DNA from: an uncultured Prevotellaceae bacterium
Lineage (GTDB): Bacteria > Bacteroidota > Bacteroidia > Bacteroidales > Bacteroidaceae
NCBI GenBank assembly: GCA_900316475.1
Contig: ONDA01000015.1
Span: forward strand, 1-60,312
DNA: 60,312 bases
Direction of reading: 5' to 3'
The notes under the pieces were generated by a model, which was not told the DNA's origin, did not search any database, and worked only from the letters and a program-made list of their open reading frames with translations. Every line of letters starts with the position of its first letter. Positions within the stretch are counted from its first letter, which is position 1. Below are positions 50,931 through 60,312 of this stretch, in pieces. The translations under genes were made by a program, and so were the position numbers.

Positions 50931-52397
50931 ATGCTGGAGAAGCTGGGCATAACAGCGTTGAACGATATGCAACGCCAGGCGGGCGACGCCATTCTGCACA
51001 GTAGTCAGGACGTGGTGGTTCTCTCGCCTACAGGCACTGGCAAGACGCTGGCCTATCTGCTGCCTCTTGTGCAGCTGGTCGATGCACAGCAGGACATTCC
51101 CCAGGCACTGGTCATCGTTCCTGGCCGTGAGTTGGCCATGCAGTCCGACCGTGTGCTCAGGAGCATGGGCTGTGGTCTGAGGTCGGCTGCCTGCTATGGT
51201 GGCCGTACGGCGATGGACGAGCACCGGCGCTTGAGGGAGTTGAAACCCCAGATTATCTTTGGAACGCCAGGGCGGCTGAACGACCATTTGGATAAGGGTA
51301 ATATCAGCCCCTTCGGCATACGATATCTCGTCATCGACGAGTTCGACAAATGTCTTGAAATGGGATTCCACGACGAAATGGCCAGGCTGCTGAAGAAGCT
51401 GCCTGGCGTTCGTCGTCATATACTATTGTCGGCCACCGAGGGAGCCATTGACCATGGACCATTGACCATTGACCATTCTTGGAAACGCATCAATTTCCTT
51501 CATAAGAATTCTCCATCGTCAATGGTCCGCTCGGCTCTGCCGCTTGGCTCGTCCAAGAATGGTCAATGGTCAATGGTCAATGGTCAATGTTCAACGGTCA
51601 GCGAGCGCGTCAAGGCCTACGTGGTGAAGAGCCCTGTGAAGGACAAGCTGACAACGCTGCGCCAGTTACTCTGCGACTTCGGCTGCGAACAGAGTGTGGT
51701 TTTCCTCGGGTTCCGCGATGCCGTCGAGCGGGTGGGGGACTATCTGCGTCGCGAGGGCTTCGCCGTCAGCGTCTTCCACGGAGGCATGGAGCAGAAACAG
51801 CGTGAGGACGCTCTTTACAAGTTCTCCAACGGCTCGGCCAACGTCTTTGTAAGTACCGATCTGGGAAGTCGTGGACTCGACATTCCCGACGTTCAGAACA
51901 TCATCCACTACCACCTGCCGCTCCACGAACAGGAGCTGGTACACCGCGTAGGACGTACCGCCCGCTGGGACAAGCAGGGCAGGACGTTCTTCATCGTCGG
52001 TCCCGAGGAACAGCTGCCGGAGTTTGTCATTGACCATTTACCATTGACCATTGACCATTCACCATTCTTGGACGAGCCAAGCGGCAGAGCCGAGCGGACC
52101 GTTGACGATCGCGCAGCCAATGGTCAATGTTCAATGGTCAATGTTCAATGTCCACCCACTCCCCCAATGGCTACACTCTATATCGGTAAGGGCAAGAAAG
52201 ACAAAATCTCCAAGGGAGATATCGTCGGGTTCCTTTGTAAGAAAGGTGGCCTGCAGCCGTCAGAGATAGGCCGTATTGACGTGATGGAGCGCTATGCCTA
52301 TGTGGCAGTGAGCCGTCAGTGCTTCGCGCAGGTACTCCGTCTGACGCAAGGCGAGAAAATAAAAGGCATAAAGACCGTGATTGAGCCAGTAAAATGA
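50931..52397 (+). CDS. DEAD-box RNA helicase (DbpA type) with two in-frame repeat insertions
   Basis: 488 residues. Helicase motifs: Q-region LGITALNDMQRQA, I SPTGTGKT, Ia PGRELAMQ, Ib GTPGRL, II VIDEFDKC (DEFD, not DEAD), III LSAT, V STDLGSRGLDIP, VI HRVGRTAR. The C-terminus (ATLYIGKGKKDKISKGDIVGFL) is a DbpA RNA-binding domain, pointing to ribosome assembly. Two segments, residues about 172-224 and 366-408, are not helicase: they are translated copies of a heptamer-ended repeat element (IDHGPLTIDH and NGQCSMVN peptides). One lies between the two RecA-like domains, the other between domain two and the DbpA domain. Both keep the frame, so the protein is probably still made. The short intergenic distance suggests transcription with ompH. 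Confidence 0.9.
   Translation: MLEKLGITALNDMQRQAGDAILHSSQDVVVLSPTGTGKTLAYLLPLVQLVDAQQDIPQALVIVPGRELAMQSDRVLRSMGCGLRSAACYGGRTAMDEHRRLRELKPQIIFGTPGRLNDHLDKGNISPFGIRYLVIDEFDKCLEMGFHDEMARLLKKLPGVRRHILLSATEGAIDHGPLTIDHSWKRINFLHKNSPSSMVRSALPLGSSKNGQWSMVNGQCSTVSERVKAYVVKSPVKDKLTTLRQLLCDFGCEQSVVFLGFRDAVERVGDYLRREGFAVSVFHGGMEQKQREDALYKFSNGSANVFVSTDLGSRGLDIPDVQNIIHYHLPLHEQELVHRVGRTARWDKQGRTFFIVGPEEQLPEFVIDHLPLTIDHSPFLDEPSGRAERTVDDRAANGQCSMVNVQCPPTPPMATLYIGKGKKDKISKGDIVGFLCKKGGLQPSEIGRIDVMERYAYVAVSRQCFAQVLRLTQGEKIKGIKTVIEPVK
51445..51600. repeat. Heptamer-ended inverted repeat, ORF-less copy 1, inside the helicase gene
   Basis: The left arm has four ATTGACC-type units ending ATTCTTGG (51446-51482). The right arm starts CCAAGAAT and has five or six GGTCAAT/GTTCAAC units (51553-51599). 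The interior includes a 47-bp core (51516-51562) present inverted, with one mismatch, in the second copy at 52062-52108. The stretch AAACGCATCAATTTCCTT may be native helicase sequence, in which case this is two adjacent insertions. Confidence 0.85.
52028..52152. repeat. Heptamer-ended inverted repeat, ORF-less copy 2, inside the helicase gene
   Basis: CATTGACC-type units at the left (52028-52066) end in ATTCTTGG. A core with CGAGCCAAGCGGCAGAGCC follows, then GGTCAATGTTCAAT units to 52152. It is inverted relative to copy 1. It is translated in frame as a linker before the DbpA domain. Confidence 0.88.
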
Positions 52398-52545: not shown

Positions 52546-53613
52546 ATGAAGAAGTACAACTTTAATGCCGGTCCGTCGATGCTTCCCCGCGAGGTTATCG
52601 AGGCAACCGCCAAACAGTGTCTTGATTTCAATGGCTCCGGTCTCTCACTCATGGAGATCAGCCACCGTGCTAAGGACTTCCAGCCCGTCGTCGACGAGGC
52701 AGTGGCTCTGGTGAAGGAGCTGCTCCAGGTGCCCGAGGGCTACTCAGTCATCTTCCTCGGTGGTGGTGCCTCCCTGGAGTTCTGCATGATTCCCTACAAC
52801 TTCCTCATCAAGAAGGCCGCCTATCTCAATACAGGTGTTTGGGCAAAGAAGGCCATGAAGGAAGCAAAGCTTTTCGGCGAGGTCGTTGAGGTGGCTTCTT
52901 CTGCCGACGCCAACTATACTTTCATCCCCAAGGACTGGACTGTTCCCGCTGATGCCGACTATCTGCACATCACGACGAACAACACCATCTACGGCACAGA
53001 AATCCGTAAGGACCTTGACGTGCCCGTTCGCCTGATTGCCGATATGTCGTCCGACATCTTCAGCCGTCCCATCGACGTCGCCAAGTACGATGCCATCTAC
53101 GCTGGTGCACAGAAGAATCTGGCTATGGCCGGTGTCACCATCGTCATCCTCAAGGAAGACGCACTGGGCAAGGCTCCACGCGAGATTCCCACGATGCTCG
53201 ACTACCGCACACACGTCGACAAGGGCTCTATGTTCAACACACCGCCCGTGGTGCCCATCTACTCGGCTCTCGAGAACCTCCGCTGGATTAAGAAGCAGGG
53301 TGGAGTAGAGGCTATGGACAAGCTGGCTCAGCAGCGTGCAGAGATTGTCTACGGCGAGATCGACCGCAACAAGATGTTCGTGGGTACCGCCAAGGAGGAA
53401 GATCGCTCGCTGATGAACATCTGCTTCGTGATGGCCGACGAGTACAAGGAACTTGAGAAAGACTTCCTCGACTTCGCCGTCTCGAAGGGAATGGTCGGCG
53501 TCAAGGGTCACCGCTCGGTCGGCGGCTTCCGCGCCAGCTGCTACAACGCCCAGACCATCGAAGGCGTCAACGCCCTCGTTGCCTGCATGAAGGAATTCGA
53601 GAGTAGTCATTGA
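52546..53613 (+). CDS. serC: Phosphoserine aminotransferase
   Basis: 355 residues, PLP enzyme of serine synthesis (3-phosphohydroxypyruvate to phosphoserine). Start [21 protein letters not shown] and [20 protein letters not shown] are typical. The PLP lysine is in [17 protein letters not shown]. The end [37 protein letters not shown] is normal, but the last residues SSH and the TGA stop are supplied by the first CATTGACC unit of the inserted repeat, so the native terminus has been replaced. A further open frame upstream to 52447 lacks conservation. serA follows after the inserted cassette. Confidence 0.95.
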
Positions 53614-54032
53614 CCATTGACCATTGAACATTGACCATTATGAAGGCAGACAATCAAGTGTTGGTTGACAGTAAAGCTTTCGCTCTTCGAATTATCAGAC
53701 TATATAATTATCTTAAAGAGGAGAAACAGGTTTATGTCCTGTCAAAGCAAATACTGAGAAGCGGCACAAGTGTTGGGGCTAATATTTGTGAGAGTGTCAA
53801 TGCTCAAAGTCGAATGGATTTTATTAACAAATTAAATATTGCTTTAAAGGAAGCAAATGAAACGGAATATTGGCTGGAGCTGCTCCATGAGTCTGACTAT
53901 TTAGATGACAAACAATTTGAATCCATATATAATGACTGTGGGAAAATAGCAGCGACTTTGACCAAAATTATCAAAACGACCAAAATCGTCGCGGAGAAAT
54001 AATGGTCAATGGTCAATGTTCAATGTTCAATG
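53609..54032. mobile_element. Heptamer-ended inverted-repeat cassette carrying a four-helix-bundle gene
   Basis: The left arm (53609-53640) is four CATTGACC/CATTGAAC units. The right arm (54001-54032) is the matching GGTCAAT/GTTCAAT units in inverse order; the arms are about 32 bp each. Between them is only the four-helix-bundle gene, whose ATG and TAA touch the arms. The same units flank ORF-less copies in the helicase gene 1.5-2 kb away. No transposase and no obvious target duplication. It separates serC from serA. Mobility is inferred from the repeats and from the altered serC end. Confidence 0.8.
53640..54002 (+). CDS. Four-helix-bundle protein (S23 / intervening-sequence protein family, Avd-like)
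   Basis: 120 residues matching the 23S-rRNA-intervening-sequence protein family: ALRIIRLYNYLKEEKQVYVLSKQILRSGTSVGANICESVNAQSRMDFINKLNIALKEANETEYWLELLHES. These proteins form pentameric four-helix bundles; the relative Avd works with the reverse transcriptase of diversity-generating retroelements and binds nucleic acid. No reverse transcriptase or rRNA is nearby. The ATG at 53640 directly follows the left repeat arm, and the TAA directly precedes the right arm. It is lower in GC than its neighbours, a sign of transfer. Its role here is unknown; binding its own flanking repeats is a testable idea. Confidence 0.9.
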   Translation: MKADNQVLVDSKAFALRIIRLYNYLKEEKQVYVLSKQILRSGTSVGANICESVNAQSRMDFINKLNIALKEANETEYWLELLHESDYLDDKQFESIYNDCGKIAATLTKIIKTTKIVAEK

Positions 54033-54039
54033 AAATATA

Positions 54040-54957
54040 ATGAAGATATTAGTTGCAACAGAAAAGCCGTTCGCAGCAGCTGCCGTGAACGGTATCAAAG
54101 CAGAAGTTGAGGCAGCCGGCAACCAGCTCGTGCTGCTCGAGAAGTATACAGAGAAGGCACAGCTCCTCGACGCTGTCAAGGACGCCGATGCCATGATTAT
54201 CCGCTCAGACAAGGTCGATGCCGAAGTTCTCGACGCTGCCAAGCAGCTGAAGATTGTCGTTCGCGCCGGTGCCGGTTACGACAATATCGACCTCGCTGCA
54301 GCTACCGCTCACAATGTGGTGGCTGAAAACACCCCGGGACAGAATGCCAACGCCGTTGCCGAACTCGTTTTCGGACTCTTGGTAATGGCTGTTCGCGGTT
54401 TCTACAACGGCAAGAGCGGTAGCGAACTACTCGGTAAGAAACTCGGCATCCTTGCCTTCGGCAACGTTGGTCGTAACGTGGCCCGTATCGCTAAGGGCTT
54501 TGGCATGGACGTCTACGCCTACGACGCTTTCTGCCCTGCTGAGGTGATCGAGAAGGCTGGCGTACACGCTGTGGCTAATCAGGATGCACTCTTCGAGACC
54601 TGCGACGTCGTATCGCTCCACATACCCGCAACACCTGAGACCAAGCAGAGCATCAACTACGCCCTCGTCGGCAAGATGAAAAAGGGCGGCATCCTCGTCA
54701 ACACCGCACGCAAGGAGGTCATCAACGAGCCTGAACTGCTCAAACTGATGGCAGAGCGCGACGACCTGAAGTTTGTCACCGACATCATGCCCGACGCCAA
54801 CGACGACTTCCTGAAGTTCGAAGGCCGCTATTTCTCAACACCGAAGAAGATGGGTGCTCAGACGGCAGAGGCCAATATCAACGCCGGTATTGCTGCCGCC
54901 AAGCAAATCAACGCTTTCTTCAAAGACGGCGATACCAAGTTCCAGGTGAACAAATAA
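54040..54957 (+). CDS. serA: D-3-phosphoglycerate dehydrogenase
   Basis: 305 residues, short form without a C-terminal ACT domain. Oxidises 3-phosphoglycerate, first step of serine synthesis; serC, the next enzyme, is just upstream. NAD-binding loop ILAFGNVGRNVARIAKGFGMDVYAYDAF. The catalytic site shows Arg in VRAGAGYDNIDLAAA and Glu in NTARKEVINEPELLKLM; near the end, STPKKMGAQTAEAN replaces the usual TPHxGxxT segment with a Lys-Lys variant seen in Bacteroidota enzymes. The start codon lies seven bases after the inserted repeat arm, so the cassette now forms part of its leader. Confidence 0.92.
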   Translation: MKILVATEKPFAAAAVNGIKAEVEAAGNQLVLLEKYTEKAQLLDAVKDADAMIIRSDKVDAEVLDAAKQLKIVVRAGAGYDNIDLAAATAHNVVAENTPGQNANAVAELVFGLLVMAVRGFYNGKSGSELLGKKLGILAFGNVGRNVARIAKGFGMDVYAYDAFCPAEVIEKAGVHAVANQDALFETCDVVSLHIPATPETKQSINYALVGKMKKGGILVNTARKEVINEPELLKLMAERDDLKFVTDIMPDANDDFLKFEGRYFSTPKKMGAQTAEANINAGIAAAKQINAFFKDGDTKFQVNK

Positions 54958-59730: not shown

Positions 59731-59757
59731 TAATGTTTAATGTTTAATGTTTAATGT
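59731..59757. repeat. ATTAAAC 7-bp tandem units before the 99-residue gene
   Basis: On the minus strand CATTAAAC repeats three to four times in 27 bases, ending in AACTATGG at the start codon (59725). The first unit supplies the TAA stop of the Rha/KilAC gene. Confidence 0.75.
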
Positions 59758-60312
59758 TCAATGAGGTTTCTGATCATTTCGGCACCTTCCGTAGTCCAGA
59801 CGAGATAGTAGCGCCGTTTCTTCTCGCCCTCCAATGAGTAGTAGTGGAAAGCTCTGTCCTGAGCCAGTCCGCGTCCGTCGTACTCCTGCGTCAGCTTGTA
59901 GCGTCCGCCGTTCCAGAACTGTACGCCCGCCGCCACCAGCAGCTTGTTCAGTTCCTTCACCTCCATCTCCAGCATCCGGGCCACCTCGCCCGCCGTCATG
60001 CAACCGTCGCTCGGCAGGTTCTCGCCCGCTATCTGCTGCCGACGTATGGCGTCGCCCTGCTGCAGAATCTCCCGCTCCGTCACTAACAGCCGCTGTCCGG
60101 TAGCCAACTTTTCACTCTTCACTTTTCGCTTCTCACGTTCCAGCTCTTCCCAACGGAGCACCAGCCGTGCGCGCGCCACGTCGTTGAACTTCGTGGCGAT
60201 GTAGAGACATTCTGTTTTCGAGAGAGAGTAACAAGGGCGTTGCTCGCCCTTGGAGTCCGTGTAAGCAACGAGCGCAAAATTGCGCCCGTTAACCTTTTCC
60301 CAGGCAGGCTCC
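59751..60312 (-). CDS. Rha/KilAC phage regulatory protein (5' end outside the window)
   Basis: At least 186 residues, open to the right edge. From the edge the frame reads AWEKVNGRNFALVAYTDSKGEQRPCYSLSKTECLYIATKFNDVARARLVLRWEEL, the Rha N-terminal domain, followed by a short coil and a KilAC-type C-terminal domain (CMTAGEVARMLEMEVKELNKLLVAAGVQFWNGGRYKLTQEYDGRGLAQDRAFHYY...YLVWTTEGAEMIRNLI). Such proteins are phage regulators or antirepressors. It would head the leftward cluster. The first residues are missing. It is the intact relative of the remnant at 159-503; about 60% of the shared block is identical by eye. Confidence 0.88.
   Translation of the reverse strand, partial: EPAWEKVNGRNFALVAYTDSKGEQRPCYSLSKTECLYIATKFNDVARARLVLRWEELEREKRKVKSEKLATGQRLLVTEREILQQGDAIRRQQIAGENLPSDGCMTAGEVARMLEMEVKELNKLLVAAGVQFWNGGRYKLTQEYDGRGLAQDRAFHYYSLEGEKKRRYYLVWTTEGAEMIRNLIEH

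Follow-up and report, generated by a model that had tools for sequence, protein, structure and literature searches.

The DNA analysed in this study, hereafter the window, is a stretch of 60,312 nucleotides from an uncultured Prevotellaceae bacterium. Between the host genes serC and serA it carries a compact cassette, in which a gene for a four-helix-bundle protein of the S23 family lies between two inverted arms made of tandem heptamers (Table 1). The left arm reads CATT-GAC-CATT-GAC-CATT-GAA-CATT-GAC-CATT, each arm consisting of 4 full heptamers plus 4 nt, i.e., five 4-nt cores, and the right arm is the near-perfect reverse complement of the left (the extended 35-nt arms are 91% complementary). 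Direct reading of the sequence agrees with the original prediction that the gene is enclosed by inverted heptamer arms with no spare bases: zero bases separate the left arm from the S23 ATG at 53640, and the S23 TAA (54000-54002) overlaps the right arm. The stop codon of serC, TGA at 53611-53613, is supplied by the first unit of the left arm, as was also predicted, and the proposed contact of the right arm with serA stands as adjacency, with 7 bases lying between the arm and the serA start at 54040. In the window, the motif AATGKTCAATG was counted 22 times, whereas 100 shuffles give an expectation of 0.10, and chance is therefore excluded as the source of the arrays. A further heptamer array (ATGTTTA three times plus ATGTTCA) lies at window positions 59733-59760, with no inverted partner in the scan of the window.

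Table 1. Coordinates of the S23 cassette, its host genes and the gene-less elements nearby (positions in the window).
Feature	Position	Strand	Remark
Gene-less element 1	51449..51600	.	inverted ATGKTCA arrays, 4 and 6 units, in frame in a DEAD-box helicase gene
Gene-less element 2	52031..52154	.	inverted ATGKTCA, in frame in the same DEAD-box helicase gene
serC (host gene)	52546..53613	+	3' end and stop codon within the left arm
Whole S23 array element (cassette)	53608..54032	+	between serC and serA; 425 bp
Left arm, 32 nt	53608..53639	-	five CATT cores at 3-nt spacing; ATGKTCA heptamers on the minus strand
S23 / four-helix-bundle gene, 120 aa	53640..54002	+	PF05635, TIGR02436
Right arm, 32 nt	54001..54032	+	inverted copy of the left arm; overlaps the TAA of the S23 gene
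serA (host gene)	54040..54957	+	downstream

S23 is the only gene of the cassette, and PF05635 is the sole Pfam match of its protein (3.8e-30, 104.7 bits, curated cut-off 33.8), together with a match to TIGR02436 'four helix bundle protein' (9e-34, 116 bits, cut-off 24), so that the predicted S23/Avd-like gene of 120 residues is confirmed as a member of the S23 family. No transposase was found in the cassette by gene content and Pfam profile search, no Rfam match was obtained in the window, and, with serC and serA as the neighbours, the cassette neither lies within an rRNA gene nor adjoins a reverse transcriptase. The family is widespread, PF05635 being carried by 52 of the 60 genomes of an evenly drawn genus sample and by 157 of 198 genomes of the phylum. 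To our knowledge, S23 has no known catalytic domain. The function of PF05635 proteins is given as not known in the part available of a paper on Coxiella, in which the S23 protein of Xanthomonas is described as a homopentamer (PMC4990558). In agreement, five chains are contained in the one entry of each of the solved relatives 2rld and 2gsc.

Six residues, Q37, R40, S44, N48, E51 and E74, are near-invariant across 238 S23 proteins: Q37 and E74 are present in all, E51 in all but one, S44 in 99%, and R40 and N48 in 98% each. For the 161 rows that were not picked by peptide motif, the counts are 161 for Q37 and E74, 160 for E51, 158 for S44 and 157 each for R40 and N48, and the next most conserved column is I67 at 93%. 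The 3-4-4-3 spacing of the first five would place Q37, R40, S44, N48 and E51 on one face of a helix. In 12 aligned Avd proteins, five of the six residues are replaced and the sixth is unaligned. The S23 genes are under purifying selection; the dN/dS of the cassette gene is 0.03-0.08 against three same-site relatives (dS above 1, rough), and values of 0.03-0.18 were obtained for the 11 of 14 pairs that have a finite dS, these being rough since dS is mostly above 1. A role as a defence-system protein was considered and rejected, as two S23 proteins gave no match in PADLOC.

The heptamer of the cassette recurs elsewhere in the same genome. The 18-mer AATGKTCAATGKTCAATG is present in 36 copies, against 5 for a reversed control pattern, of which six are in the cassette and the remainder at nine further places, two of these being the gene-less elements of the helicase gene upstream of serC. 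Reading of eight of the nine places outside the cassette showed each of the eight to be within an open reading frame; solo arrays, which lack a partner arm, also occur. The two helicase elements have a common inner sequence in opposite orientation, are absent from the nine relatives aligned, and look as if part of the host sequence had been replaced, rather than interrupted by insertion alone. Helicase site 1 is empty in the relative G051 and filled in the relative G312, and at site 2 both relatives carry other sequence. In hisS, the array of this genome consists of nine units (63 nt), and the gene product is 18 residues longer than that of G022; at this point G051 (93% aa) carries another heptamer, and no array is present in the remaining 11 of the 13.

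In order to describe the flanks of S23 genes in general, an inverted-repeat score of at least 13 around the gene was employed as the arm test, together with a mismatched control, in which the left and right flanks scored together are taken from different genes. For four sets pooled (genus, phylum, named genomes and plasmids), arms were identified at 182 of 245 S23 genes (63 fell below the threshold) against 54 of 2407 mismatched pairs, counts that come from related genomes and genes, with loci partly hand-picked among the matches listed, and that are not independent events. The genus set (60 evenly drawn genomes plus G158; the loci returned plus 60 stretches hand-picked among the matches listed) gave arms at 84 of the 96 S23 matches with readable flanks, two of which are pieces of one broken gene and besides which one more was skipped, compared with 3 of 338 neighbouring ORFs and 8 of 1920 dinucleotide shuffles. 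For the phylum set (top-scoring matches plus 19 hand-picked stretches; 4 skipped), arms were found at 22 of 48 loci, with shorter cores and looser spacers. The named genomes, selected by peptide motif (best 80 loci; 4 matches skipped), showed arms at 58 of 82 S23 matches versus 5 of 404 mismatched pairs, and these are distributed over Bacteroidota, Acidobacteria, Planctomycetes, Cyanobacteria, Chloroflexi, Proteobacteria, Patescibacteria, Fibrobacter, Clostridia and others, with one locus of a Methanophagales archaeon (L311) just at the threshold. As an out-of-sample set, 20 of the 55 plasmid matches listed, mostly cyanobacterial, were read; L341 gave no profile match, and 18 of the remaining 19 S23 genes have arms versus 6 of 183 mismatched pairs. 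Viral contigs and one phage gave arms at 14 of the 20 matches measured, a set that has no mismatch control, and the phage gene among these, the Avd of a diversity-generating retroelement (DGR), is without arms. A strict core model, which is less sensitive than the inverted-repeat score, detected both arms at 67 of 96 genus and 20 of 48 phylum loci versus 19 of 425 mismatched pairs. These surveys show that the inverted-array architecture is usual for S23 genes, indicating that the expectation of heptamer-type arms at other four-helix-bundle genes was correct for most family members examined, and that the element is not special to the serine operon.

The genome of the window itself carries four PF05635 genes (L001-L004), three of which (L001, L002 and L003) lie between inverted heptamer arrays with differing units (AGAGGAG, ATGKTCA and ACTTCTT-related). 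The fourth, L004 (G000:C49), is split into two pieces, and its CATCAGC/CATCTTC arrays are direct, not inverted. Several plasmid cassettes are found in distinctive surroundings. Those of L348, L352 and L357 lie inside CRISPR gene clusters. In Pseudanabaena galeata and Anabaena sp. 90, whose arm units differ, the cassette is flanked by cas6 and cas4, and in Picosynechococcus sp. PCC 7003 it is flanked by cas10 and a cmr3-type gene. The cassette L349 of a Nostoc edaphicum plasmid is situated between two genes for ribonucleotide reductase subunits, in opposite orientation to both, and the S23 genes L342 and L344 of Nostoc plasmids are directly upstream of a XisI or XisH gene. A distribution of XisH/XisI similar to that of TAACTGA arrays is mentioned in the part available of PMC4679880.

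The arms were then compared with each other and with the protein. The unit at S23 loci is 7-12 nt long and differs in sequence between loci, the best tandem period in the genus being most often 7, followed by 8, with a few at 9 to 12. Within one locus, left and right units agree with a median of 0.85 (48 period-7 loci), against 0.52 for mismatched pairs, and 38 of the 48 loci lie above the 95th percentile of the mismatched pairs. Between loci, the agreement of the units is 0.73 for proteins that are more than 60% identical and falls to 0.53-0.55 for proteins 40-60% identical, the value for mismatched arms being 0.52; a heptamer that is fixed within each protein lineage is therefore not supported. 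The original idea that the protein recognises its own heptamer arms is thus weakened as far as a single heptamer sequence is concerned, although there is a weak overall correlation of protein and unit similarity (Spearman 0.21, reached by 1 of 500 permutations). For the 167 loci with arrays on both sides, period 7 versus period 8 or more requires 19 changes on the S23 tree, versus a mean of 48.6 and a minimum of 42 for 100 shuffled labellings, which shows that the period follows the protein tree. On the coding strand, the left arm holds more G than C in 135 of these 167 loci, less G than C in 26, and neither in 6. Arm length at period 7 peaks at 32 nt (28 of 218 arms), with 31 nt in 21. The arms of period 9 and 10 more often hold about four units; a constant number of units across arms was accordingly discarded, and the idea of five cores per arm fits periods 7 and 8 best. 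What persists is the period, the inward polarity and the identity of left and right arms, and what drifts is the unit sequence. A GACA(A) motif lies just inside some arms of period 8 or more (L060, L141, L055 and L061); in L060 and L141 it has TTGTC as its inverted partner, and L180/L188 carry an inner inverted pair AATTTGC...GCAAATT; these motifs are perhaps a second, non-periodic end signal.

Two inverted arms around an S23 gene could also be maintained for folding of RNA. An S23 ORF, a 28-bp terminal stem and excision by RNase III are described for the 23S rRNA intervening sequence (IVS) of Coxiella burnetii, along with tandem heptamers beside the start codon, in the part available of PMC4990558. 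By analogy, the arms of the cassette, which could pair in RNA, would form a transcript stem that is cut by host RNase III, with S23 in the loop. In the sense RNA, however, the arm mismatches at 164 loci include 103 G.U against 133 A.C (p=0.06), and, with no G.U excess, conservation of an RNA stem as such is not indicated. Moreover, a stem alone leaves the short periodicity and the drift of the unit unexplained, solo arrays have no partner arm to pair with, and the window is without an Rfam match. We thus consider an RNA-level element unlikely, and an RNA stem as the reason for the arms was not supported by the wobble asymmetry test.

A retroelement reading, in which S23 acts as an Avd with a reverse transcriptase supplied in trans, finds a point in its favour in the match of the S23 protein L039 to the PHROG 'Avd protein of DGR' (9.6e-15). 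Using phage Avd as the query, we collected 67 distinct Avd genes, 55 of which have an RT-like ORF downstream (identified by motif only). The arm test was negative for all 67, and in 2 of them both flanks gave some tandem signal; as described above, the 12 Avd aligned have the six S23 residues replaced or unaligned. A search of 20 genus genomes with the reverse transcriptase profile PF00078 gave no match in 9, of which 8 carry S23, 7 of these at 98-99% completeness; the negative genomes include that of the window (91% complete), G055 with 117 array matches, and G028 with 15 S23 matches at 99% completeness. A reverse-transcriptase partner is thus not supported by genome content and Avd controls, and together with the wobble test these weaken the RNA-based or retroelement reading, a retroelement being in our estimate highly improbable. 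Likewise, of the 15 S23 carriers among the 20 genus genomes, 3 (G012, G026 and G046) gave no match to the profile Y1_Tnp (PF01797), and a Y1/RAYT partner was rejected on this ground; a Y1 transposase is present in the other 12, and elsewhere in the genome of the window too, but the profile search gave only PF05635 between the repeats of the cassette.

The history of the insertion site was followed by reading 41 serC-serA junctions (11 obtained via the helicase search, which gave one further locus without serC, and 30 among the best SerC matches, the window included). An S23 cassette is present in three of them, i.e., in the window, G158 and G006, and a fourth was read in G055 because its S23 adjoins serC. 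The closest relatives by SerC, G051 and G312 (99.2% aa), have no S23 cassette at this site. Their junctions (L107 and L108) hold a different gene-less inverted element of about 140 bp, CCCACCCC.../...GGGGTGGG. The other spacers, 8 to about 250 bp in length, are short or contain single arrays of other units or other inverted elements, and one holds another small frame. At the junctions L120, L122, L123 and L129, inverted elements without a gene were seen that are made of other units, such as ACGGATTAT and CACAGAGAT, and resemble repeats common in many bacterial genomes. The existence of empty or differently filled junctions in relatives, as had been anticipated, together with the arms at most other family members, bears out a minimal cassette with a history of the mobile type. 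The four S23 cassettes share flanks, which may reflect either a hot spot or a long-standing cassette that was lost repeatedly. No target-site duplication or base-exact insertion boundary was resolved at the serC-serA and helicase sites.

In a wider comparison, 39 pairs of S23 genes with an identity of 75% or more were examined. Within the limits of the stretches, 34 of these pairs have one or both flanks in common, indicating that long residence is common, and 5 of the 39 (L262/L273, L262/L294, L273/L294, L235/L236 and L060/L141) share the arms and the gene but not the flanks. Two general features of mobile cassettes were thus found, the same unit at different sites and empty sites in relatives, and our comparison shows that cassettes and solo arrays of one genome can be missing from the corresponding site of close relatives. 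No movement event was observed; the element may be autonomous and may be moved by the S23 protein. If S23 instead bound the arrays at its own gene and elsewhere to control expression, as an autoregulator with a regulon, the element would not itself be mobile; the left arm abutting the S23 start codon and the vertical inheritance of many cassettes are in line with such regulation, as are the TAACTGA arrays of one Beggiatoaceae genome, most of which are stated to be just upstream of start codons in the part available of PMC4679880. However, the unit or the content of the array changes at the same site between close relatives, both in hisS and at serC-serA, all eight array places read outside the cassette are within ORFs, and cassettes with unrelated flanks exist, for which reasons we regard regulation alone as quite unlikely.

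The dispersed arrays outside the cassette were counted for three units over 60 genomes, and a genome was taken as cognate when an S23 flank that was read holds the same pattern, the S23 genes being read in part only. For ATGKTCA, the cognate genomes contain 30, 66 and 114 arrays versus a median of 0 (p=0.001); for AATTGAY, the one cognate genome contains 66 (p=0.048); and for AGTTGACR, the cognate genomes contain 16 and 18 (p=0.0012). In the joint permutation over the three units, this level was reached in 0 of 20000. High counts were also obtained in genomes with no known cognate S23, i.e., G040, G037 and G031 for ATGKTCA, G027 and G037 for AATTGAY, and G029 and G028 for AGTTGACR, and for two of the three units the top count is in such a genome (G027 and G029). 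The counts show that genomes carrying an S23 cassette of a given unit hold more solo arrays of this unit, and since the S23 genes were partly read and the genomes are related, the enrichment supports, rather than proves, action in trans. The same data bear on the view that the arrays are passive repeats generated by slippage and hairpin copying, with S23 genes as passengers. Variation in unit copy number, such as the 12 right-arm units of G312 at helicase site 1 against 6 in the window, is as expected from slippage, but the arrays go with S23 and not with neighbouring ORFs or Avd, the period tracks the protein tree, the arrays are enriched where the cognate S23 is present, and the S23 genes are kept at low dN/dS; we find passive origin very hard to accept.

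Taking these observations together, we consider it fairly probable that the cassette is a minimal DNA element, herein referred to as the S23 array element, in which the encoded S23 protein works on the array ends both in cis and in trans. An S23 pentamer, suggested by the five chains of the two solved relatives, would assemble on the DNA of the arms and recognise period and polarity rather more than any one fixed sequence, with perhaps one core per subunit. It would thereby promote the spread or upkeep of its own cassette, and in trans would promote gene-less arrays and hairpins that land in spacers and, in frame, in genes. The cutting and joining may be performed by a host enzyme or by S23 itself, the latter being suggested by the six near-invariant polar residues that are missing in the Avd proteins aligned. 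In the most specific form of this proposal, S23 would be a recombinase or nuclease, a pentameric four-helix toroid that clamps the five cores of each arm, one per subunit, reads period and polarity rather than a fixed sequence, and cuts and copies arrays via Q37, R40, S44, N48, E51 and E74; we put this forward tentatively, as a possibility that is rather doubtful at present.

The rule that an S23 gene goes with two inverted short-period arrays of its own unit provides a candidate DNA substrate for the family, and ties together three puzzles, the rRNA IVS with an S23 ORF, the dispersed heptamer arrays that have no known author, and the in-frame insertion of repeats into conserved genes. If S23 acts on the arrays, the cassette would represent a self-contained unit of very small size that mobilises DNA and has no known transposase, relaxase or reverse transcriptase. 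If S23 is a recombinase or nuclease, the cassette would be one of the smallest autonomous mobile elements, and the arrays of cyanobacteria, Xanthomonas, Beggiatoaceae and Bacteroidetes, together with the rRNA IVS, would be products of one enzyme family.

In the literature covered, which is incomplete, we found no report that links S23 genes to flanking arrays as a rule, and the cassette was compared with the known systems that it resembles. REP elements with RAYT (Y1-type) genes consist of one gene between inverted short repeats with many gene-less copies in the genome, an arrangement shared with the present cassette, but S23 does not belong to the Y1 transposases, and the three S23 carriers named above gave no PF01797 match. 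The Avd of DGR is a remote family relative of S23, but differs in the arms (0 of 67), in the six S23 residues and in the RT-like ORF downstream (55 of 67). The palindromic elements of Rickettsia (MITEs), as described in the part available of PMC10969869, are likewise palindromic, about 150 bp in length and in frame in genes; in contrast, the S23 system has ends made of periodic arrays and includes a relative that bears a gene, S23. Dispersed heptamer arrays are known as TAACTGA arrays in Beggiatoaceae, cyanobacteria and Bacteroidetes, without known cause (PMC4679880), and as single and convergent GGGAATC arrays in Xanthomonas, for which the authors found no general association with mobile elements (PMC4692102). 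As far as these two sources were available, they agree with our arrays in the tandem heptamers, strain-specific positions and 7-nt indels, and in the inverted pairs of Xanthomonas, but differ in that a link to an S23 gene is not described in the parts available. A further similar system is the 23S rRNA IVS, e.g., that of Coxiella burnetii, which, in the part of PMC4990558 available, shares with the cassette an S23/PF05635 ORF as the sole gene, a length of about 430 nt, terminal inverted repeats on both sides of this ORF and tandem heptamers by the ORF. The cassette differs from it in its location in a protein operon, in that both arms are full short-period arrays, in the gene-less relatives scattered in genes and in the lack of an RNA-stem signal. 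Since the cassette departs from IVS, DGR and RAYT in a defining feature tested for each, we call the S23 array elements, recognised by inverted arrays of one shared short unit on both sides of S23 as in the present cassette, a new class, into which the IVS is expected to be folded; with their S23 ORF, terminal stem and heptamers, the rRNA elements are probably a special case, or one branch, of this class.
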